From positions 1 to 64,000 of the forward strand of contig CANLXI010000023.1 in the NCBI GenBank assembly GCA_947495035.1: DNA of 64,000 nt, in the 5' to 3' direction. A program made the translations under genes and the position numbers. This stretch comes from an uncultured Granulosicoccus sp. GTDB lineage: Bacteria > Pseudomonadota > Gammaproteobacteria > Granulosicoccales > Granulosicoccaceae. Under the pieces are notes generated by a model. The model had not been told where the DNA came from. It saw only the letters and a program-made list of their open reading frames with translations, and did not search any database. This document shows positions 24,740 through 45,242 of the stretch, piece by piece; the stretch's first letter is position 1; each line of letters begins with the position of its first letter.

Positions 24740-25049
24740 TGTTCACAATTCCTGACACAAGGCGCAGATTTTTCTTGCAAGCGTTGTCATATGCTGGCGC
24801 CAGTTCAACAGAGCCACGTCAGGTTCAGTGAGTTTTCGTGCGAGCCGGTTCACGTAGATTCTATTCCATTGCTATTGACTCTACATACTTTCGGATTCCG
24901 TTATGTGACCTTTTTTCGTTGGGTTACAATGGTGATGTCTCTTCTGACAGGACGTCAACCTGGTGGTCGACCCTCGAAGGGTGAAGTCGTGCTTCACTCC
25001 GCACCAAGATGCTCGGCTTGAACAAATTGCGTACTCTGGAACGTGGTTA
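24740..25049. other. Divergent intergenic region between flippase and SDR genes
   Basis: About 310 bases that must hold the promoters of the two divergent transcripts. TACAAT at 24925-24930 could serve as a -10 element for the SDR gene. No matched -35 box at normal spacing was found; TTGACT at 24875 is too far away. No gene or repeat is visible. Confidence 0.35.
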
Positions 25050-26039
25050 ATGAAGTTATTAGAAAGCTATAAGGGAAAGTCAGTATTGGTTACTGGTGGA
25101 CTCGGGATGATAGGAAGTTTTGCTGCTACCAAGGCTGCCGACATGGGAGCAAGTGTAAAGGTAATGGACTGTCTTCTGCCTCACCACGGCGGCAATCTGT
25201 TCAACTTGAAAGGCTATGAAGATTCAATCGAAATCATGAATGGCGACATTCGTGATCGTGAGAAGATGAAGCAGGTTGTTGAGGGTGTTGATCTGATAGT
25301 TCACTGCGCAGCGCATGTTGTATATCCACACAGCATGTCGGATCCGTTTCTTGATCTTGAAATAAACGGCTTCGGCCACTTGTCGGTTCTTGAAGCATGC
25401 AGGCACGTCAATCCAGGTGCTCGAGTTGTATTTACCAGTTCCAGAATGAAGTATGGAAACATATCCGAGCTGCCAGTCAACGAGAACCACCCAGCGAATC
25501 CACTGGTTATTTATGGGGCCCATAAACTACTTGGTGAAAACTATCAGAATATATATCACAAGCACTTCGGCATAGAGTATACGAATGTTGTCATTCCAAA
25601 TCCGTATGGCCCTCGACAACATATGCAGCATCATCACTACGGCCTGGTCAACTGGTTCATTCGCCAATGCATGGAAAATAATCCCATAAGTATATTTGGC
25701 GATGGCCTGCAACTACGTGATTATATTTATGTGGAAGATATCGTTACCGCCATTCTTCTTGCAGGTGCTTCCGATTCTACCGTTGGTGAAACACTGAATC
25801 TCGGCAATGAAAAGGGAATCACGTTCAAGTACATGGTGGAAACCGTGGTAGGTACAGTCGGACAAGGTTCATACGAGCATGTTGATTGGCCGGACAACTA
25901 CAAGGCAATCGAGACCGGTGGCTATGTTGCTGACATTAGCAAAGCGCGGTCGTTAGGATATGAGCCTGCCTTTACATTTGAGGAGGGTGTTGCAAGGACT
26001 CATGAATTCTACAAGAGCAACTGGAAGAATTACTGGTAA
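25050..26039 (+). CDS. NAD-dependent nucleotide-sugar epimerase/dehydratase (SDR)
   Basis: An extended short-chain dehydrogenase: the NAD motif is [15 protein letters not shown], the catalytic Tyr-Lys pair lies in YGAHKLLGE, and the substrate-side segment is [10 protein letters not shown]. The enzyme should modify a nucleotide sugar (4-epimerisation or dehydration) for cluster I. The ATG at 25050 is used: it begins 11 codons before the glycine motif and follows GGAACG. A longer in-frame start at 24963 has no conserved features. The gene is 41 bases before rmlA, so the substrate could be a dTDP-sugar (inference). Confidence 0.85.
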
Positions 26040-26080
26040 CGGGATGCGGGTTCGTTTTCAGGGGTTCTGGAGAAAAAATT

Positions 26081-27001
26081 ATGTCTTGTAGCAAGGGTAT
26101 TATTCTGGCCGGCGGGACCGGTAGTCGTTTGTTCCCTGTAACAAAAGGGATGAACAAGCATCTTCTACCGGTGTACGACAAGCCAATGATATATTTTCCG
26201 GTTTCCACATTGATGCTTGCTGGCATAAGAAAAATCCTGTTGATCACCAACGAGTGTGACCTGGATAACTTCAAACGCCTGCTGGGTGATGGTTCCTGGC
26301 TTGGTATTTCAATAGAATATGCAATTCAGGACTCCCCAAATGGTCTGGCTGAGGCGTTTCTCATCGGGCGTGAGTTCATTGGTGAGGACTCGGTTGCACT
26401 ACACCTTGGTGACAATGTGTTTTATGGTCAGGGCTTTCATTCCCTTCTGGAAGCTGCAGCAAAGAAAGAAGATGGTGCTTCGATATTCGCCTATCATGTG
26501 AAGGATCCCAAGCGGTTCGGAATAGTAGAATTTGATGAAGAAGGCAGGGTGATTTCGCTAGAGGAAAAACCTGAGAATCCGCGTTCGAGTTGTGCTGTCG
26601 TGGGCTTGTACTTCTACGATAATGATGTAGTGAGTATGGCCGAGTCGATAAAGCCATCAAGCCGAGGGGAATTGGAAATCACCGATATAAACCGCCTTTA
26701 TCTGGAAATGGGTAAGCTATCGTGTCACTGGATGGGGCGAGGCTTTGCATGGTTGGACACCGGTACGCATGAATCGTTGATGCAAGCCTCCAACTTCATA
26801 CATACCATTGAGGAGAGGCAGGGTTTGAAGGTTGCATGTCTGGAGGAGATCGCCTGTCTCAAAGGCTTTATATCGAAAAGTCAGGCAAAGGATCTTGCTT
26901 CTCGTCTACCTGAGTCAACTCGTGATTATCTGTTTGAGCGTATTGATGCCCTGGACGGGGAATCGCGTCATCTGTTCGAGCACGCATTGTCAAAGATGTA
27001 G
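26081..27001 (+). CDS. rmlA: Glucose-1-phosphate thymidylyltransferase
   Basis: The enzyme makes dTDP-glucose from dTTP and glucose-1-phosphate. The signature [30 protein letters not shown] is the nucleotide-binding and catalytic loop of RmlA/RfbA, and [13 protein letters not shown] and [10 protein letters not shown] are also characteristic. The length of 306 residues is slightly above the usual ~290. The usual partners rmlB, rmlC and rmlD are not in this window, so dTDP-rhamnose synthesis would need genes elsewhere, or the neighbouring SDR acts on dTDP-glucose. Confidence 0.92.
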
Positions 27002-28057: not shown

Positions 28058-31000
28058 TCATTCGGTTATTGTGAATGAGTCTGAATTCAACGACCTCAAC
28101 CCGTCCCCATCGTAGGCCCACATTCCAAGGTAGTAGTCATCTGCAGGTAACCTTGAAACAGCGTACGACCAGCCAGTGGTAGGGCGGAATGGCCCCAGTG
28201 GCGCTAAAACTCTCGTGTACTCCTCTTGAAATGATGAGCCATTCCAGTAAAGCTGTGTTGTGCTCGATCGCAAGGTAAGTTCCAGTCGTGTCGCACCGAC
28301 ATCGTCCAGCACTTCACCTCTCAGCCGGTATGGCGGAGCGTTCGGTGAGCTTGCAGGTCTGAGAAACGCAGCTGGAGGAACTTCGTTGTCTGGCCCCACG
28401 CCGAGTTCGAGCGTTTCTGTTGTTTCATTGAATGAAGTATCATAGCTGTCGACAGTGAGTATGTATCTCGACGAATGTAGAGAGAACGGCCCATACCGCC
28501 AATTCAAGTGCTGCTCAGACTCGTTCGCAAGAATGGTGGGTTCAAAGTGCGTCGCTGTGCTCTGAAAGCCGGATCCGTTCCAGAAGCGTCGTGTTCCAAG
28601 ATCGCGTATCGCAATGCGCACATGAGATATTCCGGATTCGTCGCTGGTACTGCCATTTATCTGAAAGGTATTTGAAGTTATTCGATTCGATTCAGGCTCG
28701 GATATGCTGAGAGCTGGAGGGGATTGGTCAGCGCTGAGTAATGCGAATCGATGCCCGACAACTGTGTTATTGCCAGCATTGTCTTGAAGTTGCAGGCCAG
28801 CGAAATAGTCTCCGGAACCCAGTGAAATTGGAAAATCGTAGTACCAGGAAATCTGGCGGTTGGGCCCCGTGATGACAGGTTGCAGAACTACTCTGTCGTT
28901 CTGGAAGCTGATTCCGTTCCAGTATCGTTTGGAGGTCAAGTCGCGAACTACAAGTCCGACCTGCTGTAGACCGGAACCAAAGTCTTCTGCAGTTCCGGAA
29001 ATCCTGGGAGGATTGGACTGGCTACCAGTTTGTTCGGGAGTTGCGAAAACACCTGTGGGGGCTGTATTGTCTGGTCCGGTGCCTTCTGTAATGTTTGTCA
29101 ATATGTCGGTTGCTGACCTGTTGCCAGCTTTGTCGAACGCCCAGATGCCGAGTCGATGTGAGCCGGCTTCCAGAGAAAGGGTGGGAGACGTCCAGACTAG
29201 CGATTGGTTGGAAGTGTATTCACTGTCCACCAATATCCGTGTGTAGTCTGGTTGATAATCCAGTCCGTTGAAATAGTGTCCGCTATCGGTGTTCCTGATG
29301 GCGAGTTCGACCCTGTCGATTTCTATGTTGTCGAACGCTTCTCCGGAGAGGGTGGTGGGTGTACCCATATTGTTGGTGTCGGCAGGATATTCGACGGTCG
29401 CGACTGGCTTGCTCTTGTCAAGTGGCAAATCGACGGTGAAAAACGCTGTGGCAGCTAACGGATCCTGCAAGCCAGCGGAATCCGTGGTTCTAGCAGATAC
29501 CCAGTAAGCTTGTCCTTCTGGTGGAAGTTGGGTTGCGTATGACCATCTATATCGGTTGTTTTCCAGCTCTTCCAGCGTGGATTGATTGACGGAATAATCA
29601 TCGACAAAGTGATCCCCTTGCCAGTACTTTCTGTCATGAACGCGCCTGATGACTATTTCCACTTTGTCTACGGGGACGTTGCTACGGGAGTTGCCACGCA
29701 AGACGATATTATTGCTGTCGAATCCTGTGTCATTTGAATGCCGAATTGTGGTAACGAGTCGAGAGTTGTTTGGCGCTGTGTTTCCATCATCCAGGCATTC
29801 GGTTCCACTGCAGTCAATGAACTCATCAAGTTTTACATTGAGTGCTTGTTGTTCACTGGATGGCAGATTCGCGTATTGATTGCTTAGTTGCCATGGGTCG
29901 CTCGAAAGATCGTAGTACTCGTTTTCACCATTGGCCCAGCGCACGAAGATATCGTCATATCTTCTTAGTGCGACGTAGTTCAGATCAAGATCGACATACG
30001 AATTTTTTTTGCGCTCCGTGTTCTCTATAAGCAGACTTTCGCGCCATTGAGCTTCTGGAACAGAGTCGGGTTGCATCAGCAAAGGCATGAATGACTTCCC
30101 ATCAAGGTAGTGTGGTGCGGGGGCATTTGCTATTGACAGGAATGTCGGCGCCAAGTCGATATGCCCCAACAGATGGTTGTACTGAGTATCAGGTGTGATC
30201 CCGGGGCCGGCTACCAGTAGTTCGACTCGAGTAGTTCGATCAAATGGATCCTTCTTTCCGAAGTCTCTGTGATGTCCTTGTTGGAAGCCATTGTCTGAAG
30301 TAAGAAAGATGTAGGTATTGTCGAGTTGCCCTTTGTTGTTCAGCGCGTCAACAACGTCACCAAGTAGCTCATCAACGGCTGCGATCGATCTGAGCCTTTC
30401 ACGAAACCTTTCGTCTTCTGCCCTGATTTCTGCCGCTGATCGCAAGGACAAAGAGGCGTACTGCTGCGTCTTGTCGCTTACATCGGCTTCGTTCAAGCTG
30501 GGTACACGTGGCAGACGTACTGACGAAAACAAATCAGCATGACGCGGGTGTGACATCGGGTCTCGGCTGCTGGGAGCATAGTGGGGCGCGAACGGTGCGA
30601 TATACAGAAACAGGGGACTCGAATAGTCGTGCTGGTTCACTATTTCCGTGGCAGTTTGACTCTCCATGTCTGTGCGGTAATCGAGAGGGAATGGGCGGGT
30701 GCGAGAACGATCACCATTGGAAACTCTGGGTAGATCGAAGTAGTCACCGCCAAGACTCGCATGAAACTCGTCCCAGCCGGGTGGGTGGTAGGCTGGGTCT
30801 CGGCTGGCAACCGGGTATTCTTCATGGCAGTACTTGCCGACAAGAGCGGTTGTGTATCCGGCTTCTCGCATCCACATGCCCATCTCCGCATCAGTGTAGC
30901 CATTGTCGTGGAATATTTTCCACCCAAGAGCGTTCACTTTAACGCCGCTATTGTGCGGATATTGTCCCCGGAACAGCGAAGCTCTGGCAGGCCCGCACAA

Positions 31001-31255
31001 TGGTGCAATAGAATGGAAATTGGTAAAACGCACTCCCTTGTCCTGTACGTATTTCTTCATGTTCGGGAAATACCGTGCGATCGGCAAGCTGCCTAGCTCG
31101 TCGTATGTGGCGTCATCCAGGAAGAGAAAGAGGATATTCGGTCGGTCCGCTGCGCCTGCTTTGGTCGGGATGGTGACGAACGTCAGCAGTGTCGACGCGA
31201 TTATCGAGAACAGCCAGAGTGTAAGAAATCTTACTGCTTTGGAATGACGCATCAT
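28058..31255 (-). CDS. Secreted formylglycine sulfatase with C-terminal Ig-like repeats
   Basis: Type I sulfatase (S1 superfamily). Signal peptide at residues 1-35 (cut near TKAGA). The catalytic cysteine is Cys87 in LCGPARASLFRGQ, the C-x-P-x-R motif that formylglycine-generating enzyme converts to formylglycine. Metal ligands are in FLFLDDATYDEL (Asp47, Asp48) and TSDNGFQQGHH. After ~470 catalytic residues come five ~110-residue Ig-like modules (motifs LSGEAFDNIEIDRVELAI, YWNG, W..., GDYFAGLQLQDNAGN), related to those in the protein at 8.1-9.5 kb. The frame is open to 31441, but the ATG at 31255 directly precedes a standard signal peptide. With sulfotransferases next door, it may remove sulfate from the cell's own polymer or from foreign algal polysaccharide. 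Confidence 0.85.
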   Translation of the reverse strand: MMRHSKAVRFLTLWLFSIIASTLLTFVTIPTKAGAADRPNILFLFLDDATYDELGSLPIARYFPNMKKYVQDKGVRFTNFHSIAPLCGPARASLFRGQYPHNSGVKVNALGWKIFHDNGYTDAEMGMWMREAGYTTALVGKYCHEEYPVASRDPAYHPPGWDEFHASLGGDYFDLPRVSNGDRSRTRPFPLDYRTDMESQTATEIVNQHDYSSPLFLYIAPFAPHYAPSSRDPMSHPRHADLFSSVRLPRVPSLNEADVSDKTQQYASLSLRSAAEIRAEDERFRERLRSIAAVDELLGDVVDALNNKGQLDNTYIFLTSDNGFQQGHHRDFGKKDPFDRTTRVELLVAGPGITPDTQYNHLLGHIDLAPTFLSIANAPAPHYLDGKSFMPLLMQPDSVPEAQWRESLLIENTERKKNSYVDLDLNYVALRRYDDIFVRWANGENEYYDLSSDPWQLSNQYANLPSSEQQALNVKLDEFIDCSGTECLDDGNTAPNNSRLVTTIRHSNDTGFDSNNIVLRGNSRSNVPVDKVEIVIRRVHDRKYWQGDHFVDDYSVNQSTLEELENNRYRWSYATQLPPEGQAYWVSARTTDSAGLQDPLAATAFFTVDLPLDKSKPVATVEYPADTNNMGTPTTLSGEAFDNIEIDRVELAIRNTDSGHYFNGLDYQPDYTRILVDSEYTSNQSLVWTSPTLSLEAGSHRLGIWAFDKAGNRSATDILTNITEGTGPDNTAPTGVFATPEQTGSQSNPPRISGTAEDFGSGLQQVGLVVRDLTSKRYWNGISFQNDRVVLQPVITGPNRQISWYYDFPISLGSGDYFAGLQLQDNAGNNTVVGHRFALLSADQSPPALSISEPESNRITSNTFQINGSTSDESGISHVRIAIRDLGTRRFWNGSGFQSTATHFEPTILANESEQHLNWRYGPFSLHSSRYILTVDSYDTSFNETTETLELGVGPDNEVPPAAFLRPASSPNAPPYRLRGEVLDDVGATRLELTLRSSTTQLYWNGSSFQEEYTRVLAPLGPFRPTTGWSYAVSRLPADDYYLGMWAYDGDGLRSLNSDSFTITE

Positions 31256-31772
31256 GGAAAACGGATTTGTATTATTTGACTGTTCGGTCGCGTGGTGATA
31301 AGGGAAATATTGATTCATTGAAATCATGTGAAGCAATGAAGTCCTTGAGTCGCAAGGCGACGTCTTTGCAATGGTTGGGAAGACTGCCTCGGTAACCGAT
31401 AATGCATGGCTGGTTGTCGGCAATGGCTTACTGGCAGGCATTCATTGAAGGCCTTGGAAACATTACCATAGTGAGGTTCCATCAAACATGCGACACAGTC
31501 ACAGCCAGTCGTTCTCTGGAACCACCCAAATGGGTTATTCATGAGAAACCGAAAATGGTGTAGGTGGTTGTACATGTGTGACCCGCATACAAGCTTGAGG
31601 CAGCGGTAGCTCTAACTGGAGGTTTCTCCCTGTACAGCTCGTAATAACTATGTGTAGAATCCTGAGCCATTCGTAGCGCAGTTGACAGCAGCCAGCGCAA
31701 GCTGAGCTATTCAGGAAATCTAATCAGCTATGCTGACCTTGCTCAGGCTGAATTCAAACATGGCACAGGATC
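31256..31772. other. Divergent intergenic region between sulfatase and csgG
   Basis: About 515 bases between divergently transcribed genes. The left ~190 bases extend the sulfatase reading frame but show no conserved protein features. No gene, RNA or repeat could be identified in the rest. Promoters for both genes are expected here; no strong -35/-10 pair was recognised. Confidence 0.4.
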
Positions 31773-33470
31773 GTGATCATAGATAAATACCCATTCAACA
31801 TCGATGCATTATGCATCAGGTCGGATTTACTACCTGTTTTCCAGCGAGTTTTTGGCCAGATTTCCGCCAATGTGAACAAGGTTTTTTGTCTGAGTGTTCT
31901 GTCAATCTTGTTTCTTAACGGTTGCGCCAGTTACGGGCCTGTTCCGGAGCCATTTGATGGGATTCGTTCAAGAGCTGCACCACCCGAGGATAGTCCTACT
32001 CACAAGGATTTGATCAGCTTGCCAAAACCGGCGGGAGCAGTGACAGCCGCAGTTTATTCTTTCAGCGATCTGACCGGTCAGAACAAGCCAGCTCCTTCCA
32101 GTGGCTTATCGACCGCTGTGACACAAGGAGCAGTGAATCTTCTCATCAAGGCGCTACTCGATTCAAAATGGTTCTTGCCTCTGGAACGCAATGGGTTCCA
32201 GAATATCCTCACCGAGCGCAGTCTATGGGATCAACGACTGGCATTGAGTGGTGATGGAACAAGGAGGCTTGCTCCTCTTCCGCCTGCAGGATTGATTATC
32301 GAGGGGGGAGTGATTGCCTATGAATTCAACATCCGTTCCGGGGGGGCGGGAGCTAAATACCTGGGAATTGGAGGTTTCAAGAACTATCGAGAAGATGTTC
32401 TGACCATCAGTCTGAGAGCCGTCAACGCGCAAACAGGCACGATATTGCACAGCGTCAACAGCATGAAGACTATCTATTCCAGAGAAGTCAATTTGGGTCT
32501 GTTCGGTTACGTTGATTTTGATGTCATTGCTGAGGTCGAAAACGGGTTCGCAGTGAATGAACCCGTTCAAAGAGGAGTGGAAGAAGCAATTGAATCGGCT
32601 CTGATCGATCTGATTGTTCAAGGAGTGCTGAGTGGAACCTGGAGGTTGGAAAACCCTGCAGATATTGAACATCCAGCGTTTTCCAGATTCCTGAGCGAGG
32701 CGGATCTGCAAGCGTACAAGATTCGTGTCAGCTCCGCTCCTGAAATGCTACTTGAGGAGGCTGCAATAGAGCCGGTGGTCAGCAGGGCTCAGGCTGATGA
32801 TGTCATCAATGGTGCGGGCGAGTCAGTGCCGCCTGCTGAGGCTGCGTCGTCGTCGGGCGATGAGCCCGCGGATAGAGAAGGCATTCCTCGGCCAATACGT
32901 CCTGATCCTGGCCCTCAAACTGTCTCTGATGGCATAGCGAGACCAAGAGCGAGTATCGATGAGATTTCCGATGACAGGTTGCCTCGAGTACAGGGTGCAG
33001 TTACATCCGCGGGTAGGCAAGAGGAAGACGATGCTTCTGAGTGGACAGCAGTGCAGCCGTCTGATGTTTCAGAGAATGACAATGACGAAGTCACCGAGCT
33101 GGTGGAAGAGGTTGCATCGCCAGGATTGACCAGTAGCACCACAGAGGCGGGCCAAGACGCGTCGGTAGATGCCGGGTTGTCGGATGCGGATGGGTCGCTG
33201 CCAGCCCCGGGTCAATCAGTGGCGAATGAAAGTGTGCAGGATTCGGTTTTGATTGTGTTTGGTTACGTTGCAGACGCGGAAGAGGCGCGTAAGTTTCACG
33301 CCGCTATGGATGAACGGTATGACGGGGTAGATGTGATGCTTCTGAAAGATGATGAAGTCAATGGCTACAGGGTTGGCGTAGGCCCAGTGGAGGATAGTGA
33401 AGATGTCCAGGCCATACTCGCTGATCTTGAGCAGTTGGGATTCGAGTCTGTTCAGGTTCGGCCGTTCTAG
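31773..33470 (+). CDS. csgG: CsgG-like curli secretion channel with C-terminal SPOR-like extension
   Basis: CsgG forms the nonameric outer-membrane pore that exports curli subunits. The lipoprotein leader NKVFCLSVLSILFLNGC ends in a lipobox (Cys acylated). The CsgG domain follows: AVYSFSDLTGQNKPAPSSG, KALLDSKWFLPLERNGFQNILTERS, LIIEGGVIAYEFNIRSGG and FVDFDVI-like GYVDFDVIAEV segments. E. coli CsgG is 277 residues; this protein is 565. An acidic, low-complexity linker (~320-485) and a C-terminal ~75-residue alpha/beta unit (LIVFGYVADAEEARKFHAAM, YRVGVGPVEDSEDVQAI) resemble a SPOR peptidoglycan-binding domain. GTG at 31773 is the longest start; GTG at 31872 would give a leader of normal length. 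Confidence 0.88.
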   Translation: MIIDKYPFNIDALCIRSDLLPVFQRVFGQISANVNKVFCLSVLSILFLNGCASYGPVPEPFDGIRSRAAPPEDSPTHKDLISLPKPAGAVTAAVYSFSDLTGQNKPAPSSGLSTAVTQGAVNLLIKALLDSKWFLPLERNGFQNILTERSLWDQRLALSGDGTRRLAPLPPAGLIIEGGVIAYEFNIRSGGAGAKYLGIGGFKNYREDVLTISLRAVNAQTGTILHSVNSMKTIYSREVNLGLFGYVDFDVIAEVENGFAVNEPVQRGVEEAIESALIDLIVQGVLSGTWRLENPADIEHPAFSRFLSEADLQAYKIRVSSAPEMLLEEAAIEPVVSRAQADDVINGAGESVPPAEAASSSGDEPADREGIPRPIRPDPGPQTVSDGIARPRASIDEISDDRLPRVQGAVTSAGRQEEDDASEWTAVQPSDVSENDNDEVTELVEEVASPGLTSSTTEAGQDASVDAGLSDADGSLPAPGQSVANESVQDSVLIVFGYVADAEEARKFHAAMDERYDGVDVMLLKDDEVNGYRVGVGPVEDSEDVQAILADLEQLGFESVQVRPF

Positions 33471-33939
33471 GAAAAACGGATCCTTCAAGATTTAGGCCGA
33501 CAGGGAGATTTGCACCGATTGTACATCACGACATATCGATACTATTAAATTGCGAGCTACTTCGCAAACTATCTATTGGTATAGGAAGTGATTATCTGTC
33601 GTTTATGGCTCTGTTAGATGTAGTTGTTAATGATAAAAAGGACGGGAGATTCGTTGGATTGATCTGATGCAATTTACCGTTGCATGGTGATGATTATTCG
33701 CATAGACTCATCAAAAAATTGACGCATATTCGGTTCGGTTGAAAATGGATTTGATTTTTTCCGTTCGTGGAGAGGTGATGCAAGTCATATAAGTGAGATT
33801 ATTGAATGCCACAGTATCTCGGTGTAGAAGGAATCTTGATCAACGATGTCTTTCAAGGCACGTGAAAGTTTCGTAAATCAAGGTATGCAGCAATCCGCTG
33901 CAAGAGCGACGTAAATATGGATAACTACGAGGAATACAC
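33471..33939. other. Region upstream of the curlin-repeat gene
   Basis: 469 bases, AT-rich compared with the flanks, with no reading frame of note. It probably carries the promoter for the major curlin gene. TTGTAC at 33519-33524 and TATTAA at 33543-33548, 18 bases apart, are a weak possible pair. No terminator was seen directly after csgG, so read-through from csgG is also possible. Confidence 0.4.
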
Positions 33940-36060
33940 ATGAAGCGAACAAAAATAGCGGCGGCAGTAGCGTTGATGGTTGCTGCACCGGGAGTCTCTC
34001 TCGCGGCTGTTACCATCAACCAGAGTGGCGCAACGCATGTCACGAACTGGACTCAGAATGGTGGTGCGAATGCAGATATTCTGGTCAATCAGGCTGGTGA
34101 CGTAGCACATAATGTTGACATAATACAAGCAGGAACACCTGCGGCGTTCAATATCGAGGTCAATCAAGACGGCGACTTCATCGGTAACAACGTAAACATA
34201 CGACAGATCAAGACGAATCCGACTGACAACAACATTCTCGTCAATCAGGACGGAAACGATCTCGATGTCAACATTCAGGCAATCGGAAACACAGCCTCTG
34301 CTAACAATCCCAACGACTACATGGTCGATCAGTCCGGTGAGTCACAAGAAGTGGATATCATTTCGCAGCGGAGTAGTGGGGATCTGGTTAGCGTCACCCA
34401 ATCGGGTATCGGGCAAAAGGGTACGGTGAGGTTGGTTGAGGCCGAGTCTGCAACTGTCACGATTGATCAGGGTGGTGCCGACAACCAGGCAGAAGCTGAT
34501 ATTTCGGATTCACAGACGACAGGTGGCGCGGGTACGACTACAGCCACTATTGGTCAAACAGGTACTTCAAACTTTGCCAAGTTGACAAGCGTTCTTGACA
34601 AGGGAAGTTCCGTAACCATAGAGCAGAGTGATGATTCCAACGATGGTCGTGTATTTCTCAACAATACAGATGGTGCCACTGTAGCAATATCGCAGAATGT
34701 TGAAGGTGATGGCAACACAGCGACCTTGACAGTCAGGAACTCAACTGGCAGCAACGTGTCCGCCACACAGCAGGGTGACTTTAATGAAGCGGTATCATTG
34801 GTGCAAGGTGATGACAGTAGCATTATATCGATCAATCAGGCTGATACAGGCAACACTGCTCGTGCGAATGCTCTCAACAATACTGCTGCGACTGTTTCCA
34901 TTGATCAGTCTGCAGATGGTGACCTGAACGATGCGATAGTTGTCGTACGAGAGAGCAACGGTAGTAATGTCAGCGTTGTCCAGGAGGGCAATGAGCATGT
35001 GGCAGATGTGTTCTTGAAAGACGATGACGGTAGTATGTTGTCCATTACACAGTCGCTCGGTCAGAATCAGGCAGATGTGGAAGTTATAGGTGCCTTGAAC
35101 AGTATGGTGACCGTGGATCAAGCAGGCCGCCTCGGCCTGGTCGATATTCAGGGCAATGATCTCGATACAGCGAGTATCTCAGTTTCCCAGGACGTCAGTA
35201 GTTTCGAGAACGAAGCCTTCGTCAGCCTCGATGGGGCAACAGGAACAGCGGCTACGATCACGCAAAGCGGTGAGGTGAACTCGGCGACGATAAACGGAAG
35301 CATTTCGGACACTAATAGTACACTGGGTATCCTTCAGGCAGACGATGCCAACGTGGCAGAAATCGATCTGCAGGAGTCTGCAAACCTGGTAGTAGATGTT
35401 TCCCAGGGGGCATTGGGCGGTGATCAAAACACGGTCTTGGTCGACTTGATTGAGTCCAACAGGACCAATCTGACCATCGTTCAGAATGGCGATGAAAATG
35501 ACGTAGGTGGAGGCGCAGCATTCGAGTTCCTGGGAGATCGTGGCTCGGTCGTGGCTTTCAATCAGGCTGATGATGCGAACGTGATCGACGGGTCCATCGT
35601 GGAGTCAAGGTTCGAATTGAATGTGAATCAGGGATTGGCCGGTGGTGATGAAAATGTCGCATCGCTGACTATCGACAATGCGAATCAGACTATCGTCAAT
35701 ATCAATCAGAACGATAATATGAATGTCGCGATGTTGGACATTCAGAATGACTTCGACAGTGTTGTCAGTATCACTCAATCCAATCTCGGTGTTAGCCATC
35801 AAGCTTCAATTTCCATGAACGACACACAGGATGGAAACTTCTCGATTGATCAAAGTGGTTTGGGACACATGGCGATGATTGACGCTACTGACGTTCTTGG
35901 TGCATCAGCTTCGATCGTGCAATCAGGAGGCAGCGGAAACACCGCTACGGCTACTTTGGTGAATGGTGATGATGGTGTAGCGCTGTCCATAAACCAGATT
36001 GACTGCTTCCAGTGCACCGCCACTGCCGATTCTGGTAACCCTACTGTCAATCAACCTTGA
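33940..36060 (+). CDS. Giant curlin-repeat amyloid subunit (CsgA-like)
   Basis: Signal peptide at residues ~1-23 (AAPGVSLA-A). The mature protein is built almost entirely from curlin-type repeats of about 22-24 residues with the pattern V-x-I-x-Q-x-G-x-x-N-x-A-x-V, for example INQSGATHVTNWTQNG and VVQEGNEHVADV. I estimate about two dozen units, against five in E. coli CsgA (151 residues). Gln and Asn ladders in stacked beta-strand-loop-strand units are what build curli amyloid. Many loops carry acidic Asp-Asp pairs, which may keep the fibre soluble or bind cations (inference). The C-terminus has the only cysteine pair (IDCFQCTA). A terminator follows at 36115, so this gene could be expressed at a higher level than the genes behind it. 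Confidence 0.85.
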   Translation: MKRTKIAAAVALMVAAPGVSLAAVTINQSGATHVTNWTQNGGANADILVNQAGDVAHNVDIIQAGTPAAFNIEVNQDGDFIGNNVNIRQIKTNPTDNNILVNQDGNDLDVNIQAIGNTASANNPNDYMVDQSGESQEVDIISQRSSGDLVSVTQSGIGQKGTVRLVEAESATVTIDQGGADNQAEADISDSQTTGGAGTTTATIGQTGTSNFAKLTSVLDKGSSVTIEQSDDSNDGRVFLNNTDGATVAISQNVEGDGNTATLTVRNSTGSNVSATQQGDFNEAVSLVQGDDSSIISINQADTGNTARANALNNTAATVSIDQSADGDLNDAIVVVRESNGSNVSVVQEGNEHVADVFLKDDDGSMLSITQSLGQNQADVEVIGALNSMVTVDQAGRLGLVDIQGNDLDTASISVSQDVSSFENEAFVSLDGATGTAATITQSGEVNSATINGSISDTNSTLGILQADDANVAEIDLQESANLVVDVSQGALGGDQNTVLVDLIESNRTNLTIVQNGDENDVGGGAAFEFLGDRGSVVAFNQADDANVIDGSIVESRFELNVNQGLAGGDENVASLTIDNANQTIVNINQNDNMNVAMLDIQNDFDSVVSITQSNLGVSHQASISMNDTQDGNFSIDQSGLGHMAMIDATDVLGASASIVQSGGSGNTATATLVNGDDGVALSINQIDCFQCTATADSGNPTVNQP

Positions 36061-36114
36061 TTGGTTGACTAGCGTTTGACTCCTGCGCATTTTCAACCGC
36101 GGGATTGGTAGAGG

Positions 36115-36146
36115 CCCCCGGTCTGCAAGGCAGGCTGGGGGTTTTT
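36115..36146 (+). terminator. Intrinsic terminator/attenuator between the two curlin genes
   Basis: Stem CCCCCGGTCTGC (36115-36126) / GCAGGCTGGGGG (36130-36141) with a 3-base loop and two G-T pairs, then five T (36142-36146). The stem is long and GC-rich. Located 55 bases after the major curlin stop codon, it should lower transcription into the minor subunit and accessory genes. Confidence 0.8.
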
Positions 36147-36264
36147 CGAGGCAGTTGGCAAAAATTACAGGTGGCCGATCTTGTACGTTACGGATTGCGA
36201 GGCTTGTGAGTCAGGTCGATTGCAAAGTGGATTGGTGACTCACCGAAGGATCAATGGTAAAAGC

Positions 36265-36873
36265 ATGACTACAAACAACGGGTTCGGCAACAGTAAACTA
36301 CTGCTGCTCTCATCGATAGTGACTTCTTTTCTACCTGCCACAATGGTTAGTGCAGGTGAGTTGATTATCGACCAGAACTCCAGATTCAGTTCTTTGATCA
36401 TCGATGTGGTGACAGAGAGCAAGGAATTCGCTATCGAGTTGGAGCAGGGTGGAGTAGCGAATAATCTGGAAATGGTTATCGATAGTGCATTGGCAGGAAG
36501 CATATCTCAAGTTGGACAGCAAGGTTCTATCGATCTGAATAGTGCTGGCGAGGCACAAAGTCTGAGCGTATCGCAGGCAGGTATTGCCAATACCATGGGT
36601 ATGGAGCTCATCGGCTCGGTTATCGATGTTGTGATTGAACAATCAGGCAGCAATAACAGTATTGATTACTCTGCAAATGGTGACAACAACACCGGTACCA
36701 TCGCTCAGTCCGGTAGCGACAATAAGCTGGTGCTCAATCAGCTTGGTTCTTCGAACTTGGCAAATCTGGTGCAGGCTGGTAGCAACAACTCCATGGATAT
36801 CTCCCAGTACGGTGGTGGCTTATCGCTCGACATTACTCAGATCGGCAACGGTGATACCTTGATTATTGAATAG
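36265..36873 (+). CDS. csgB: Curlin-repeat protein, likely minor subunit/nucleator (CsgB-like)
   Basis: Signal peptide at residues ~1-30 (ATMVSAG). The mature ~170 residues hold about seven curlin-like repeats, such as VSQAGIANTMGMEL, IEQSGSNNSIDYSANGDNN and LVQAGSNNSMDISQYG. The small size and its position after the large curlin point to the nucleator role that CsgB has in E. coli, where it anchors and seeds CsgA; this is inferred. The ATG at 36265 is chosen over a start at 36181 because the signal peptide begins there. A four-codon frame (ATG 36254 to TGA 36268) overlaps the start, with AAGGA just upstream of it. The next gene follows directly. Confidence 0.75.
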   Translation: MTTNNGFGNSKLLLLSSIVTSFLPATMVSAGELIIDQNSRFSSLIIDVVTESKEFAIELEQGGVANNLEMVIDSALAGSISQVGQQGSIDLNSAGEAQSLSVSQAGIANTMGMELIGSVIDVVIEQSGSNNSIDYSANGDNNTGTIAQSGSDNKLVLNQLGSSNLANLVQAGSNNSMDISQYGGGLSLDITQIGNGDTLIIE

Positions 36874-36891
36874 TTGATTGATAACTCCGCT

Positions 36892-37239
36892 ATGAGAAAG
36901 CTGTTCGCCATGCTTCTCCTGACATTTCTATTGATGGGGGTGGCGCACCCGCAGAATTTCATGGTAGGGCAAGTTAGTACAGCTTATGCCCTTGGTGTGC
37001 AACGTCAGATGGTGCAACGTTTTGTTGTCGGAAATTATCGATTGACGCGCGGAATTGAATTGCGAGAGAGGCGTAACAATAACGGAAACTGGACACTTTC
37101 GCTCTATGTAAATGGACGGCAGAGATTCAACTACAGTTATAATGTCTCCCGATTGAATCTATTTCTTGACGAAGCTACGCTCGCACGAATTTTGGTGGAG
37201 CATCTTGAGCGCGAGAAACGCATAGTCTCATCAAGCTGA
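36892..37239 (+). CDS. csgE: CsgE-like curli accessory protein (candidate)
   Basis: A small exported protein: signal peptide at residues ~1-21 (LLMGVAHPQ). The body has GIELRERRNNNGNWTLSLYVNG, then RFNYSYNVSR and a C-terminal helix LDEATLARILVEHLER. E. coli CsgE has the comparable order [21 protein letters not shown]..., a Phe-rich strand and a C-terminal helix, and is the periplasmic cap of the CsgG pore. The match is a pattern-level similarity seen by eye, supported by its place between curlin and csgF. I use ATG at 36892; a TTG at 36874 directly follows the previous stop codon and is an alternative. Confidence 0.6.
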   Translation: MRKLFAMLLLTFLLMGVAHPQNFMVGQVSTAYALGVQRQMVQRFVVGNYRLTRGIELRERRNNNGNWTLSLYVNGRQRFNYSYNVSRLNLFLDEATLARILVEHLEREKRIVSSS

Positions 37240-37309
37240 GCGATATGTCATGAGATTTGCAAAGCTTCTGATTTTTAATATTCAGAGTATTTGATTCAGG
37301 TGAACCCGA

Positions 37310-37738
37310 ATGTTCGAAAAAGGAAAGATGATGAAGACCCTGTTATCGATAGGCTTCGCCTGTGCAGTGCTGGTTCCAGCCCATGCTTCGGAAATGGTAT
37401 ATACACCGCAAAATCCGTCATTTGGGGGTAATCCAAATAATGGCGGATATTTGCTCGGGATCGCTGCCGCTCAAAAGCAGTTTGAGCAGGAGCGTGAGGA
37501 ATCTACTCCGCTGGAAGACTTCAATGAAAGGTTGGAGCGCTCACTATTGAGTCGAATCACCAGTGCAGTCACCAGGGATATAGTGGATGTAAATGGAAAT
37601 ATAACGCCTGGAACTTTCGAAACCACAGATTTTCTCATTGAGATCATCGATGAAGGTACGGGCTTTATAACCATAATTACCACTGATAGGATTACGGGTG
37701 AGCAGTCAATTATTCAGGTTCAGAATAATGAAGGGTAA
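37310..37738 (+). CDS. csgF: CsgF curli assembly factor
   Basis: Signal peptide at residues 1-26 (VLVPAHAS). The mature N-terminus reads [27 protein letters not shown], the diagnostic CsgF segment (in E. coli: [23 protein letters not shown]) that inserts into the CsgG pore. The C-terminal part [13 protein letters not shown]...[12 protein letters not shown] matches the E. coli order as well. CsgF couples secretion to surface nucleation. The length of 142 residues is normal. An ATG at 37328 (MMKTLL) is an alternative start that removes a charged prefix. Last gene of the curli locus; no csgD or csgC is seen. Confidence 0.92.
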   Translation: [142 protein letters not shown]

Positions 37739-37913: not shown

Positions 37914-37922
37914 GGGTAAAGT
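37914..37922 (+). repeat. Target-site duplication, left copy
   Basis: GGGTAAAGT directly before the left inverted repeat of the IS, identical to the right copy. Confidence 0.9.
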
Positions 37923-37939
37923 CACCTCATTGCACACAA
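37923..37939 (+). repeat. Terminal inverted repeat, left end of IS
   Basis: CACCTCATTGCACACAA, exact inverse complement of the right end; 17 matching bases. Confidence 0.93.
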
Positions 37940-38001
37940 GTCTGACATTCCACTGGCGTTCTGCTGAGGCTTGACTACGTTCAAGGTGTTGATGCTACGG
38001 G

Positions 38002-39351
38002 TTGTTGTGGACGATGGGTTGGGCAAGTGAGGAGTTCGAAACGATTGATCTGGGTGACAAGCATCTGGACAAGCGCGCCGTGTTGCTGGCCGAGCAGTTC
38101 TCTGCCAATGCCACAAAGAGCATTCCGGATGCGTGTGGTGGCTGGGCTGAAACGCGCGCTGCGTATCGGTTTGTCGACAACCCCTCGGTTGATTTCTGGA
38201 AGATTCTCGGCCCGCATATTGAGGCTACCGAACAACGCATGAGAGCCTGCCCGGTCGTATTGTGCTTGCAGGACACGACGACGCTGGACTTCAATGGCAA
38301 GGATATCGACGGGCTTGGGCCGCTGCAGTACGAACCGCAGCGAGGCCTTCTTCTGCATCCCACCTATGTGGTCACACCTCAGCGCGAGCCACTGGGACTG
38401 ACCGATTCGTGGCACTGGGCCCGGGAGTTTCGCCAAAGCGATGGGGCACGGCCGAGCGAGATCTGTGAAAGCCAGCGCTGGATTGATGGGTATGAGCGTA
38501 TCGCTGAGAGTGCCGCTTCGATGCCCGATACGCGCTGTATCTACGTGGGCGATCGTGAATCGGACATGATGCCGTTGATGCGTCGAGCAGCCGAACTCGG
38601 AGAGCCTGTCGACTGGTTGGTACGCGCCAAGCACGATAGGGCGTTGCCTGATGGGCAGAAGCTGTTCAGCTCGGTCAGTGCCGAGAAACCGATTGGCCAG
38701 GCGCGCTTTCATTTCCGGCCCCGACGCGGTGTGAAGGCTCGTGACGTAATCCAACAGCTGTATGTGAAACGCGTTGTACTGGCCAAGGAGACGGAGAAGT
38801 TGGCGCCACTGGAAGCCACTTGTCTGATCTGCCGCGAAATCAATACAACAGAAGGGGTCAAGCCAATCGAATGGCGACTGTTGACCAATCGCTCGCTCAG
38901 TAGTGCAGCAGAAGCTGCCGAGCTGGTTGACTGGTATCGAGCCCGCTGGGAAATCGAAATGTATTTTGACGTGCTGAAGAATGGTTGCAAGGTAGAGTCT
39001 CTGCAGCTGAGAACCCTGCCGAGATTGGAAGTGGCTCTGGCGCTGTTCATGATCGTCGCCTGGCGTATCAATCGACTGATGCGCCTGGGTCGCAACCTGC
39101 CCGATGTCGATGCCAGCCTGCTTTTTGAACAGGATGAGATTGTGGCAGCCCATATTCTGAACAAGAAATCCCAACCAGAGAAGCCACCGACGCTCAACCA
39201 GGTGGTCAGGCTGGTGGCGATGGCGGGAGGGTTTCTCGGACGAAAGAGCGATGGTGAGCCTGGCGCGAAAACCATCTGGCAAGGGATGGAGCGCGTCCTG
39301 TCGTTCACAGAGGGGATGAGATACATTCGAGCTCAGCCGGAAACCGGCTGA
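38002..39351 (+). CDS. IS4-family transposase (Tn5-like)
   Basis: DDE transposase of the IS50 group. The first catalytic Asp is in VVLCLQDTTTLDF, the second in CIYVGDRESDMM, and the C-terminal signature is YRARWEIEMYFDVLKNG, which fits the IS4 Y(2)R(3)E(6)K pattern and carries the catalytic Glu. The N-terminus has DLGDKHLDKRAVLLAEQFS and a WAETRAAYRF stretch as in Tn5-like enzymes that bind the IS ends. ATG at 38014 (MGWASEEF) is a likely real start; the frame opens at 38002. The frame is intact over 449 codons, so the element may be active. Confidence 0.93.
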   Translation: MLWTMGWASEEFETIDLGDKHLDKRAVLLAEQFSANATKSIPDACGGWAETRAAYRFVDNPSVDFWKILGPHIEATEQRMRACPVVLCLQDTTTLDFNGKDIDGLGPLQYEPQRGLLLHPTYVVTPQREPLGLTDSWHWAREFRQSDGARPSEICESQRWIDGYERIAESAASMPDTRCIYVGDRESDMMPLMRRAAELGEPVDWLVRAKHDRALPDGQKLFSSVSAEKPIGQARFHFRPRRGVKARDVIQQLYVKRVVLAKETEKLAPLEATCLICREINTTEGVKPIEWRLLTNRSLSSAAEAAELVDWYRARWEIEMYFDVLKNGCKVESLQLRTLPRLEVALALFMIVAWRINRLMRLGRNLPDVDASLLFEQDEIVAAHILNKKSQPEKPPTLNQVVRLVAMAGGFLGRKSDGEPGAKTIWQGMERVLSFTEGMRYIRAQPETG

Positions 39352-39353
39352 TT

Positions 39354-39370
39354 TTGTGTGCAATGAGGTG
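39354..39370 (-). repeat. Terminal inverted repeat, right end of IS
   Basis: Read on the minus strand: CACCTCATTGCACACAA, identical to the left end. Three bases separate the transposase stop codon and the repeat. Confidence 0.93.
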
Positions 39371-39379
39371 GGGTAAAGT
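39371..39379 (+). repeat. Target-site duplication, right copy
   Basis: GGGTAAAGT directly after the right inverted repeat. Confidence 0.9.
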
Positions 39380-40002: not shown

Positions 40003-41238
40003 TTGCTCAATACCAATTTCCCACCATGGCCGTCTTTCACGGAGGAAGAGGCCGATGCAATTCATCGCGTCCTGCTGTCGAATAAAGTCAACTACTGGAC
40101 GGGAGAAGAGACGCGCAAGTTCGAGCAGGAGTTTGCAGCGTTCGCCGATTGCGAGCATGCGGTCGCACTGGCTAACGGGACTCTGGCACTGGATCTGGCT
40201 TTGAAGGCTCTTGAAATAGGCCCTGGTGATGAAGTCATTGTGACCCCCAGGACATTTATTGCTTCGATTTCCAGTGTGGTGACAGCCGGCGCCAGGCCCG
40301 TTTTCGCCGATGTAGATCAGGATAGCCAGAACCTTTCAGCATCCACTATTGAAGCTGTCATCACACCGGCCACACGTGCTGTCATCGTTGTACATCTGGC
40401 AGGCATGCCTGCTGACATGGATCCGATTCTGGCATTGGCCAAGTCGCATGGTTTGCACGTGATCGAAGATTGCGCGCAAGCTCATGGGGCTCGGTACAAG
40501 GGGCGGTCGGTTGGGAGTATGGGGGACATCGCTGCGTGGTCCTTCTGTCAAGACAAGATAATGACGACTGGCGGTGAAGGTGGAATGGTGACCACCAACA
40601 ATCGAGAGTTGTGGTCCCGAATGTGGTCATACAAGGATCACGGAAAGTCCTGGGAAGCTGTTTATGAGCGTCAGCACCCTCCTGGTTATCGATGGTTGCA
40701 TGATTCATTCGGTACAAATTGGAGGATGACAGAGCTCCAAGGCGTGTTAGGCCGGATTCAGCTATTGCGGATGACAAAATGGGGGGCTGTACGGCGGGCG
40801 AATGCTGAACGAATCTGGGCCACTTGTGGCAAGATGTCGTGGTTGAGGGTGCCGGAAATTCCAGAACATGTAGTCCACGGCGCATATAAGGCCTATGTTT
40901 TCGTACGACCGGAAAAGCTGCCAGCAGGCTGGAATCGTGACGAAATCCTCCTTTTTTTGAATGAACGAGGCGTTCCGGCGTTTTCCGGCTCCTGTTCCGA
41001 GGTGTATCTCGAGAAAGCATTCGAGGGTACAGGTTTTCGTCCCGCGAATCGATTGCCAGTCGCGAAAGCGTTGGGCGAAACCAGCGTGATGTTTCTGGTC
41101 CACCCAACCCTTGAAGAGTCACACATGACCAAGACTTGTGAGGCAATGGAGGCATTGAATGAGCAGGTCAAGAGTTTTATTATTGGCCGCTCCGCAACGC
41201 CTTGTCTACGAGAGTCGTCCAGTAGCCCTCGGGCCTGA
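40003..41238 (+). CDS. DegT/DnrJ/EryC1/StrS-type sugar aminotransferase
   Basis: A PLP-dependent enzyme that aminates a keto nucleotide sugar. The fold-type I signatures are NGTLALDLALKALEIGPGDEVIV, VIEDCAQAHGARYKG and WSFCQDKIMTTGGEGGM, in which the Lys binds PLP. The length of 411 residues is slightly longer than usual because of a C-terminal tail. The start is TTG at 40003, supported by AAGGTAAG 8 bases upstream. The first gene of cluster II; a ~270-base gap follows before the dehydratase gene, whose keto-sugar product would be a suitable substrate (inference). Confidence 0.88.
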   Translation: MLNTNFPPWPSFTEEEADAIHRVLLSNKVNYWTGEETRKFEQEFAAFADCEHAVALANGTLALDLALKALEIGPGDEVIVTPRTFIASISSVVTAGARPVFADVDQDSQNLSASTIEAVITPATRAVIVVHLAGMPADMDPILALAKSHGLHVIEDCAQAHGARYKGRSVGSMGDIAAWSFCQDKIMTTGGEGGMVTTNNRELWSRMWSYKDHGKSWEAVYERQHPPGYRWLHDSFGTNWRMTELQGVLGRIQLLRMTKWGAVRRANAERIWATCGKMSWLRVPEIPEHVVHGAYKAYVFVRPEKLPAGWNRDEILLFLNERGVPAFSGSCSEVYLEKAFEGTGFRPANRLPVAKALGETSVMFLVHPTLEESHMTKTCEAMEALNEQVKSFIIGRSATPCLRESSSSPRA

Positions 41239-41509
41239 TAAGTTTCGAGCAATATCTGGAAGTTGCGTGCGTTGTATCACAACCTATCCGAATGATTAAG
41301 CAGATTCGTCAGTTTTTTGCCGGTACAATAGGGAGATGCAAGGTAATCGGTCGATGGCGGCACTTTTACCAAATGATTTCGTTGTAGTGGGGCGGTTGAC
41401 GGTCTAAACTCACTGGCTTTCCAAGCGTGTTCTTCATCGCTGATTTCATTGCGCACTTCACTCGTGACAGAGACTTCGGGAACCAAGGAAAGCTGGAAGC
41501 AAAGAACTG

Positions 41510-43501
41510 GTGATGCAACAAAAAGTCAAGCAAGATAGTTATGTGCCCACGTTTGTACAGGTGATTGCGCGTAATCTGTCGGCAACCGGTCGTGGGAAGA
41601 AGCAGGCAATCAGCATGTTGCTGGATGCCTTCATGGTGATTGTGTCGCTATGGGCTGCCTATGCACTGCGATTTGGCTCTTTTGATGTCGACATTGCACA
41701 CCTGTCCTGGCATTTCATCTTGTTGACACCGTTAACCGTATTGATATTTACAGGGTTAGGAATCTATCGCTGGGTAGTTCGTACGTCAACCTTTGGTTTG
41801 TATCTGCAATTGCTGAAAGGAGCCTGTGCATCGTCGGCGGCCTTACTGGCCATGTTTTACCTCATGCCCGCTGACGGGGTCCAGCCACGCTCAGCATTTC
41901 TTATCTACGGGCTTGTGCTCGCCATGTTGTGCGTGGGAACAAGGCTAACCTGGAAAGGCTTGTTCAATTCGGACGGAAAGGGGGCGCCGGTGGCGATCTA
42001 CGGTGCCGGAAGCGCCGGTACGCAACTGGCCGGCATTCTGAAAAATGGTGACGAATACAGTCCGGTTTGCTTCATCGATGACAATCCGGGCTTGTCAGGG
42101 TCAACGGTCATGGGGCGACCGGTTCTGAATGGCGTGGGCTCGAACCTGGCGGCGCAGTTGGCCAAGTACGAAGTATCGGAGATCATCATTGCCATCCCGT
42201 CGGTTAATTCAGCTCAGTACTCACGCATTTATGATCGAGTCGAAGATCTGGGATTTCCGTTCAAGACATCTCCGAGTTTTGTTGAACTGGTCAGCGGACA
42301 GGCGGCTATCAGCGAAATTCGAGAAGTTTCCGTAACAGACATTCTCGGGCGTAATGAAGTGGTGCCTGATCCGATCCTGCTGGCGGCGGCCATCAGGGGC
42401 AAATCGATTCTGGTGACAGGGGGGGGCGGATCAATCGGATCAGAATTGTGTCGTCAGATCATCAAGCATCGCCCGGCGAGATTGACTGTCCTGGATAACA
42501 GTGAAGCAAACCTGTATCACATCGAGGAAGAACTCACGGAACTGCGAAGGGAGTCTGGTGATCTTTCGGAGATGGAATTCGATACAGTCTTGTGTTCGGT
42601 GACGGACCAACGTCGTATCGATCGGTTGTTCGAATCTCTGCACTTCGACACTGTTTACCACGCGGCAGCCTACAAACACGTGCCCATGGTAGAAAATTTC
42701 CCCGAGCAGGGAATCGAGGTCAATGTTTTCGGCACGCTCAATCTGGTCAATGCGGCCATGCGTACCAAAGTCGACAGATTTGTATTCATTTCTACGGACA
42801 AGGCAGTTCGACCAACGAGCGCCATGGGGGCAACAAAACGAGTGGCAGAACTCGTGTTGCAAGCCAAGGCCAACATGTCGGATCACACCCTCATATCCAT
42901 GGTTCGTTTCGGCAACGTGCTTGCCTCGAATGGCTCAGTCGTACCAAAGTTCAGGAAGCAGATTGCCGCGGGTGGCCCAGTGACCTTGACTCATCGGAAC
43001 ATCACTCGTTACTTCATGACGATCCCTGAGGCATCTCAGCTGGTCATACAGGCTAGTGCAATATCCAGTAGTGGTGATGTCTTTGTGCTCGATATGGGGG
43101 AGCCCATCATGATCTCTCATCTGGCAGAGACCATGATCAGATTGCATTGTCAACAAGTGGAGCAGGCGGGGGGGACTCGTCCTGATATACGCATAGAGGT
43201 CACGGGGCTGAGGCCGGGCGAGAAAATGTACGAGGAGTTGTTTCTTGATGACAGTTGCGAGCAGACATCCATCGACAAGGTCATGAGTGCGCACGAGCAA
43301 TGTCTCGCTTGGAGCGAGTTGGAGAGCGATCTGACTACGCTGCAGGAAGGGCTTCTTGATGACAAGGCCGATGCCCTCAGAACGCAGCTCTTCAGTATCG
43401 TGTTTCGTGGAGCACAAGCAGTTGAGACATTGGCTTCGCCCAAAGACAAAGCTGGCGATACTCGACAAACCAGCGCTGGTGTGGCAGCGATGCAGCACTA
43501 A
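41510..43501 (+). CDS. Nucleotide-sugar 4,6-dehydratase, FlaA1/CapD/WbpM-like
   Basis: The N-terminal ~140 residues hold four membrane helices. A first Rossmann unit (VAIYGAGSAGTQLA) follows, then the catalytic SDR unit with SILVTGGGGSIGSELCRQI and STDKAVRPTSAMGATKR. This is the arrangement of long membrane-bound WbpM/CapD enzymes (about 650 residues) that turn UDP-GlcNAc into a 4-keto-6-deoxy sugar, a step toward QuiNAc, FucNAc or bacillosamine. In these SDRs the Met in the SAMGATKR segment takes the place of Tyr. The GTG at 41510 and ATG at 41513 are both possible. Neighbours are consistent with amino-sugar synthesis. Confidence 0.9.
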   Translation: MMQQKVKQDSYVPTFVQVIARNLSATGRGKKQAISMLLDAFMVIVSLWAAYALRFGSFDVDIAHLSWHFILLTPLTVLIFTGLGIYRWVVRTSTFGLYLQLLKGACASSAALLAMFYLMPADGVQPRSAFLIYGLVLAMLCVGTRLTWKGLFNSDGKGAPVAIYGAGSAGTQLAGILKNGDEYSPVCFIDDNPGLSGSTVMGRPVLNGVGSNLAAQLAKYEVSEIIIAIPSVNSAQYSRIYDRVEDLGFPFKTSPSFVELVSGQAAISEIREVSVTDILGRNEVVPDPILLAAAIRGKSILVTGGGGSIGSELCRQIIKHRPARLTVLDNSEANLYHIEEELTELRRESGDLSEMEFDTVLCSVTDQRRIDRLFESLHFDTVYHAAAYKHVPMVENFPEQGIEVNVFGTLNLVNAAMRTKVDRFVFISTDKAVRPTSAMGATKRVAELVLQAKANMSDHTLISMVRFGNVLASNGSVVPKFRKQIAAGGPVTLTHRNITRYFMTIPEASQLVIQASAISSSGDVFVLDMGEPIMISHLAETMIRLHCQQVEQAGGTRPDIRIEVTGLRPGEKMYEELFLDDSCEQTSIDKVMSAHEQCLAWSELESDLTTLQEGLLDDKADALRTQLFSIVFRGAQAVETLASPKDKAGDTRQTSAGVAAMQH

Positions 43502-43589
43502 GGACGCTTTTCTTGCGTTAGTAGCCATACCCATTGAAATGAGTTGCCGCCGTGAATCCTGTTCATCCGATGGAGCGGATGTTCGCTGA

Positions 43590-44609
<1,020 letters not shown>

Positions 44610-44631
44610 AAACTATCAGAGGAGCTTTGGA

Positions 44632-45210: not shown

Positions 45211-45242
45211 ATGATCCCTGGAAAGTAAAAGGACGGTATCAC

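Follow-up and report, generated by a model that had tools for sequence, protein, structure and literature searches.

A curli locus of an uncultured Granulosicoccus combines a giant CsgA with a CsgG pore protein that carries a SPOR-like tail

Why would a curli locus encode a CsgG pore protein far longer than usual together with a giant curlin? The question is raised by a 64,000-nucleotide stretch of DNA from an uncultured Granulosicoccus sp. (positions 1 to 64,000 of contig CANLXI010000023.1, assembly GCA_947495035.1; 7.16 Mb, 159 contigs, 6.89% contamination), referred to here as the window, in which a first-pass annotation had placed five curli open reading frames (ORFs) on one strand. The ORF list confirmed csgG, a giant csgA, a csgB-like gene, a csgE-like gene and csgF in this sequence on the + strand, at positions 31773-37738. 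We found that this is a complete curli locus with an unusual architecture, in which the CsgG pore is followed by a SPOR-like tail. With a probability of roughly 0.6, we consider that the curli pore exports the giant CsgA and that the SPOR-like tails most likely serve to fasten the pore to the cell wall or to position it there.

The csgG gene (31773..33470, + strand) was matched by Pfam PF03783 (E 3.3e-54), with the pore domain at 32019..32648 (+), and by the solved CsgG structure 3x2r (E 1.2e-57). The 565 residues originally reported are correct as the length of the ORF; the protein itself probably starts at the GTG at 31872 and would have 532 residues, in which we read an ordinary signal peptide closing with a lipobox (LNGC). 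Together, these three features identify the product as the pore lipoprotein of type VIII secretion. Beyond the pore domain, the chain continues as an acidic low-complexity linker of 187 residues (32673..33233, +; 39 D/E and 12 K/R) and ends in a domain of 76 residues (33240..33467, +). AlphaFold2 models of this domain (best predicted local distance difference score, pLDDT, 88.2; five models 77.7-88.2) had the beta-alpha-beta-beta-alpha-beta fold of SPOR domains. Among the 50 Foldseek matches listed, the top query TM-score belonged to the RlpA SPOR domain (0.67), with CwlC at 0.65 and FtsN at 0.62; one acetohydroxyacid synthase chain also reached 0.65. Three further CsgGs were found to end in such a domain, that of G006 (locus L009), a genome of the same family, and those of G792 (L014) and G791 (L038), from another group of Gammaproteobacteria. 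When the tails were aligned by hhalign to 20 SPOR domains, which we had picked from above-cut-off Pfam matches, the probability was 96.9 and none of 100 shuffles did as well; the window and G006 pair alone gave 92.4 and the L014 and L038 pair alone 96.4. The window and G006 domains have the motif DxRYDGVDV in common.

Several observations weigh against reading the tail as a wall-binding SPOR domain on a giant-curlin exporter. The Pfam SPOR model scored the window's tail at E 0.042 and 14.6 bits, under its curated cut-off of 21, as it did the tails of L014 (15.6-19 bits) and L038 (15.6 bits), and it did not match the G006 tail. Foldseek gave no PDB match to the tail model at E <= 0.001, and its matches were led by ribosomal S6 permutants when ranked by E-value. 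When the tail served as sequence-profile query against the PDB, no SPOR domain came up (best E 0.2, to another protein), and a Foldseek search of the PDB with the model of the giant curlin returned nothing significant. Finally, the Gln conserved in strand beta-1 of SPOR domains is Val in both the window and G006, although it is kept in L014 and L038. SPOR domains usually bind denuded (peptide-stripped) glycan, and the beta-1 Gln contacts the sugar, where it meets the lactyl group of N-acetylmuramic acid (PMC6895207). Because this Gln is missing, we call the window's domain SPOR-like and not a proven SPOR; wall binding is therefore plausible but unproven, and tethering is uncertain for the window's protein itself. 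The proposal in the first-pass annotation that the extension may anchor the pore to peptidoglycan gains from the likeness of its end to a peptidoglycan-binding family and is weakened by the missing Gln. The arrangement resembles that of RlpA, which among SPOR envelope proteins unites a SPOR domain and an outer-membrane lipid anchor in one lipoprotein (PMC6895207), but differs from it in that the SPOR-like domain sits on a secretion pore and lacks the Gln.

Is the fusion peculiar to the window? A curli-type CsgG match was found in 37 of 398 genomes of the phylum, with open frames of 261-350 residues except in the window (572), G535 (483) and G564 (473). The G564 match was weak, and the curlin motif was absent from the surrounding 6 kb. 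The extended CsgG of G535 (L078 2352-3797; 481 residues) has a Pro-rich tail in which no SPOR domain was visible by eye. In the family of G791, 51 of 144 genomes had a CsgG match and frames above 330 residues occurred only in G791 and G792. Five of 91 distinct CsgGs, a set biased towards relatives of the query, had a tail of more than 150 residues, and four of these five had the SPOR-like end. The four fusions formed two clades in two groups of Gammaproteobacteria. Their placement in a single clade was rejected by the approximately unbiased test (p 0.002, on 40 of the 91 CsgG rows), the tested group being defined by possession of the domain and the test being run after we had viewed a quick tree. 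The domain was therefore either gained twice, or gained once and then lost several times; the CsgG of G018 (locus L008), also of the window's family, has 381 residues and no SPOR-like domain.

The second clade also bears on the giant subunit as a cause of the CsgG extension. The CsgAs of L014 and L038 are of ordinary size (289-290 residues, 16 QxGxxN motifs) although their CsgGs are tailed, so the extension is not generally tied to a giant CsgA. The linkers of these CsgGs are basic or mixed (37 K/R and 3 D/E of 165 residues in L014; 29 K/R and 17 D/E of 143 in L038). According to an earlier survey, the size of CsgA has no influence on that of CsgG (PMC3521004). Our results qualify the statement, since CsgG size does vary, although the long CsgG of the second group accompanies an ordinary CsgA. 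A literature search, which left most subscription journals outside its coverage, found no published CsgG-SPOR fusion and no paper linking Granulosicoccus to curli.

The giant csgA gene (33940..36060, +) encodes 706 residues. Pfam PF07012 did not match it, whereas the NCBIfam CsgA model did so in six stretches (E 1.5e-25, under the model's cut-off). A two-sequence profile of the window and G006 proteins matched the solved curlins 8c50 (E 7.5e-8, a value that holds for the whole chain, as no single stretch passes alone) and 8enq (E 9.2e-5). AlphaFold2, run on the two-sequence alignment, gave a best pLDDT of 79.4 (five models 59.9-79.4) and a predicted TM-score of 0.72. The model contains 57 strands, corresponding to an uninterrupted beta-solenoid of 28 rungs of 24.4 +/- 2.2 residues each and one leftover short strand. 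The protein had been described as a curlin with about two dozen repeats; it does model as stacked curlin repeats, as expected of a major subunit, while the count rises to 28. With the solenoid rungs spaced at 4.8 A, the folded unit would be about 13-14 nm long. With a net charge of -78, the mature chain is highly acidic.

We compared these features with published curlins. Every one of the 28 rungs has a Gln in its first strand, but the Q-x10-Q pattern occurs just six times, and this one-sided Gln ladder fits the 'degenerate' curlin class (PMC10192328). In that paper, curlins span 4-62 repeats and repeats without the second Gln are described, so that size as such is no novelty here. The window's protein shares great length and repeats lacking the second Gln with these curlins, and differs from them in the combination of 28 of 28 first-strand Gln, six Q-x10-Q and a CxxC motif near its C-terminus.

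Giant CsgAs were also found elsewhere. The G006 protein has 752 residues (38.5% identical to the window's), and that of G015 has 716 residues from an ATG at L145:983 (36.8% identical). An intact second gene in the window's own assembly, on contig C75 (L144 209-2332, - strand), encodes 707 residues that are 80.6% identical. The ratio of nonsynonymous to synonymous divergence (dN/dS) between the two genes of the assembly is about 0.07, at a dS of 1.76, close to saturation. When rungs were compared with those of the window, the top match came from the corresponding position (the partner rung) in all 28 cases for C75, in 19 of 28 for G006 and in 11 of 28 for G015; between G006 and G015 the figure was 9 of 28. 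Yet in only 14 of 28 cases (G006) and 15 of 28 (G015) did the partner rung score above the best of the same protein's other rungs. A recent repeat expansion is disfavoured because four proteins keep the length, rungs match by position and dN/dS is low; from these comparisons, the giant length appears to be old and kept. Besides an IS1595-type transposase, contig C75 (5.5 kb) has further transposase-like ORFs; no other csg gene was seen among its ORFs. In G015 (L145, G015:C52), positions 983-4717 hold two tandem giant curlins, the second cut by the end of the 4.7-kb contig; CsgF was not found in the G015 genome.

The CxxC motif (36004..36015, +) belongs to the turn of the final rung. Of 110 curlin-like ORF rows, 5 had it in their last 40 residues (the window, L009, L080, L081 and L004, of which L004 is an incomplete further copy of the window gene). 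The CsgAs with CxxC near the C-terminus are thus those of the window, G006, G056 and G318, and also those of C75 and G015, which have no CsgG in the tree. For CsgG, the first four group with G018 in a single five-member clade (support 98 in the quick tree and 100/99 in a second tree), though the G018 CsgA lacks the motif. One CsgB-like ORF (L043) has an internal CxxC, and 'CxxC' occurs 0 times in the main text of PMC10192328. Our guess is that the motif clips the end of the subunit through a disulphide or a metal.

Does the rest of the locus belong to curli? The first-pass annotation had named CsgG, CsgF and a smaller curlin from the letters alone, and each is matched by Pfam (PF03783, PF10614 and PF07012), as the giant curlin is by NCBIfam CsgA. 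The small curlin gene (36181..36873, +; PF07012 E 3.5e-9) probably starts at the ATG at 36265, giving about 202 residues. Its best NCBIfam match was CsgB (42.3 bits, cut-off 165), ahead of CsgA (32.6 bits), both under cut-off; by this ranking it is the minor subunit. CsgF (37310..37738, +) was identified by PF10614 (E 1.9e-29) and the solved CsgF 6l7a (E 1.3e-12), and is thus the CsgF of type VIII secretion. The fourth gene (36874..37239, +; probable ATG at 36892) had been proposed as a CsgE candidate. It had no match in Pfam or NCBIfam, and a PDB sequence search with its profile gave nothing useful. Its mature part scored 26.6 against a profile of 18 CsgEs, with a maximum of 18.4 in 200 column shuffles (0 of 200 as high). 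We accept it as a diverged CsgE, solely by this profile-profile comparison.

The absence of csgC, claimed at the outset for the locus, extends to the whole genome, in which a profile search found no match to PF10610. It is not remarkable, since within the Gammaproteobacteria csgC is confined to Enterobacteriales and Aeromonadales; several groups also lack csgD (both from PMC3521004). The further suggestion that the locus may be a distinct branch of functional amyloid secretion was not borne out, because every component is of curli type, the repeat number of the giant subunit falls inside the published range of 4-62 (PMC10192328), csgC is restricted to two orders of the class and csgD is missing from several groups (PMC3521004). 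In our view it is curli secretion in a variant form whose pore may be addressed to the wall, not a branch of its own. Compared with E. coli curli (csgBAC/csgDEFG), the window has counterparts of CsgG, CsgF, CsgE, CsgA and CsgB, and differs in its 28 CsgA rungs versus 5, the linker and SPOR-like tail of CsgG, the leading position of csgG, the divergent CsgE and the lack of a detectable CsgC. It resembles the csgBAEFG operons of Alteromonas and Pseudoalteromonas in being on one strand without csgC, and differs from them in that csgG lies upstream of csgA, not after csgF (PMC3521004). HfaB, the holdfast-anchoring relative of CsgG, shares the CsgG-type domain and gave a weak NCBIfam match to the window's protein. 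This identity was rejected, as the score (39 bits) was far under the equivalog cut-off of 300 and the curli genes of the window are complete.

How might such a system work? CsgG subunits would form the usual outer-membrane pore, which we infer to be a nonamer, each subunit continuing through a long, flexible and acidic linker into a SPOR-like domain. These would most likely lie in the periplasm, since we take the C-terminus of CsgG to be periplasmic. The pore would export unfolded, very long, acidic CsgA, which would fold on the cell surface into 28-rung solenoid units that stack into a fibre. The CsgB-like protein would act as nucleator and CsgF as the adaptor outside the cell, and the diverged CsgE would sit on the periplasmic side. 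Export, nucleation by CsgB and stacking are proposed because they are known for curli, in which unfolded CsgA leaves through a CsgG-CsgF pore and is nucleated (PMC7304575). Nine SPOR-like domains on their linkers could then fasten the pore to the wall, or recruit it to places where denuded glycan is plentiful, so that the fibre would be mechanically anchored or placed at particular sites. What sequence and models establish is the set of genes, the solenoid, the SPOR-like domain and the fact that it recurs; the nonamer, the topology, the tethering and the fibre are inferences from these. A more far-reaching version, which we put forward tentatively and would not expect to hold in full, is that the SPOR-CsgG fusion was invented more than once and places or gates secretion at division sites or poles, giving a holdfast-like, wall-anchored fibre that the giant, CxxC-capped subunit matches. 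If true, curli would here be a localised, wall-anchored fibre instead of an all-over coat. To our knowledge, the placement of curli pores and the hold of the fibre on the cell have been little tested outside E. coli, and a pore with its own cell-wall-type domain in two groups offers a direct genetic handle on where the fibre sits and how it grips.

The main rival is that the tail is a periplasmic substrate filter or chaperone, the SPOR-like fold being reused for a non-glycan partner while the charged linkers keep the giant acidic CsgA unfolded and off the vestibule. The absence of the SPOR Gln in the window and G006 would fit this, as would the pairing of an acidic linker (39 D/E, 12 K/R of 187) with a CsgA that is itself very acidic (net -78). 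Two further traits are common to the window and G006, a CsgE missed by Pfam and a Leu in place of the Phe of the pore constriction. In E. coli CsgG the constriction is made by Tyr66, Asn70 and Phe71 (PMC7304575), and the window's loop (32091..32108, +) has Ala, Gly and Leu at these positions. Across 91 CsgGs, the Phe71 position was read from the alignment as Phe in 76, Leu in 6, Tyr in 5 and Ile in 3 (one not alignable), and all three CsgGs of the family (window, G006 and G018) have Leu. However, G018 combines the Leu and a Pfam-missed CsgE with a CsgG that has no SPOR-like domain, so neither feature is tied to the tail, and in L014 and L038 the linkers are basic or mixed, the CsgAs ordinary (289-290 residues) and the Gln kept. 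We judge a filter or chaperone unlikely.

We give somewhat less credence again to the tail being a chance product of gene fusion that does little, in an ordinary long-subunit curli system. The differently composed CsgG tail of G535 (481 residues, Pro-rich end) and the domain-free 381-residue CsgG of G018 in the same family are what such an event could leave, but different genera preserve the domain (the window and G006 share DxRYDGVDV), and it is present in two separate clades. Least of all do we favour another ferredoxin-like fold unrelated to SPOR by descent, already disfavoured and very improbable, since the leading E-values of the S6 circular permutants and the under-cut-off Pfam scores are opposed by the top listed TM-scores of RlpA, CwlC and FtsN and by the hhalign match to SPORs (96.9, 0 of 100 shuffles). 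Tethering or positioning of the pore thus remains our preferred account of the tail.

Curli are rare in these groups, as CsgF was found in 3 of 48 genomes of the family, the window's included, and in 7 of 369 sampled genomes of the class. The gene order of the window is uncommon: csgG followed csgF (gap -83 to 298 nt) for 89 of 90 distinct CsgGs with csgF at the locus, and the window was the only one of the 90 loci with csgG in front. An intact Tn5-type insertion sequence lies 184 bp downstream of csgF (37923-39370, region 37914-39379). Its inverted repeats are perfect over 17 bp, the target duplication spans 9 bp (gggtaaagt), and one partial copy (92%) occurs elsewhere in the genome. Because the target duplication is clean, there is no support for this element having moved csgG. 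Between csgA and csgB, an RNA hairpin with a U tract (36110..36146, +) folds at -30.6 kcal/mol (z -2.88), with 2 of 200 shuffles folding equally well. It is a probable attenuating terminator, as would be expected if csgA is made in excess, though it was not among the sites listed by the terminator scan. Promoter-like sites (6 versus 8.4 in shuffles) and terminator-like sites (5 versus 4.6) were about as frequent as by chance.

The curli locus is flanked by two apparent exopolysaccharide clusters (14136-27001 and 40003-54841), whose genes, named by eye, encode glycosyltransferases, sugar-nucleotide enzymes, an exporter and a Wzc-like kinase; genes for fibre and polysaccharide matrix are thus grouped. 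Secreted proteins adjoin the curli loci of both the window (28058-31441, -) and L009 (7492-9681, -), a sulfatase and a GDSL lipase whose Ig-like repeats are related and include a YWNG/WWNG motif. Their position may be coincidence if the family commonly has such proteins. The G018 locus has a gene for a secreted-looking protein of 95 residues upstream of csgA (L008 10960-11247, -), with no Pfam family over cut-off, and one for a LuxR-type regulator beside csgG (6434-6742, +); no counterparts were noticed beside the window locus, for which no dedicated search was made. Further away in the window, a von Willebrand factor A protein (4446-7400, +) and an ExeM/NucH-like nuclease (9616-12414, -; match below the model's cut-off), otherwise unrelated, share at their C-termini a module that spans about 92 residues, is 57% identical between them and includes the motifs GCSCEQIL and LLRW; it may serve as a tail for surface sorting.

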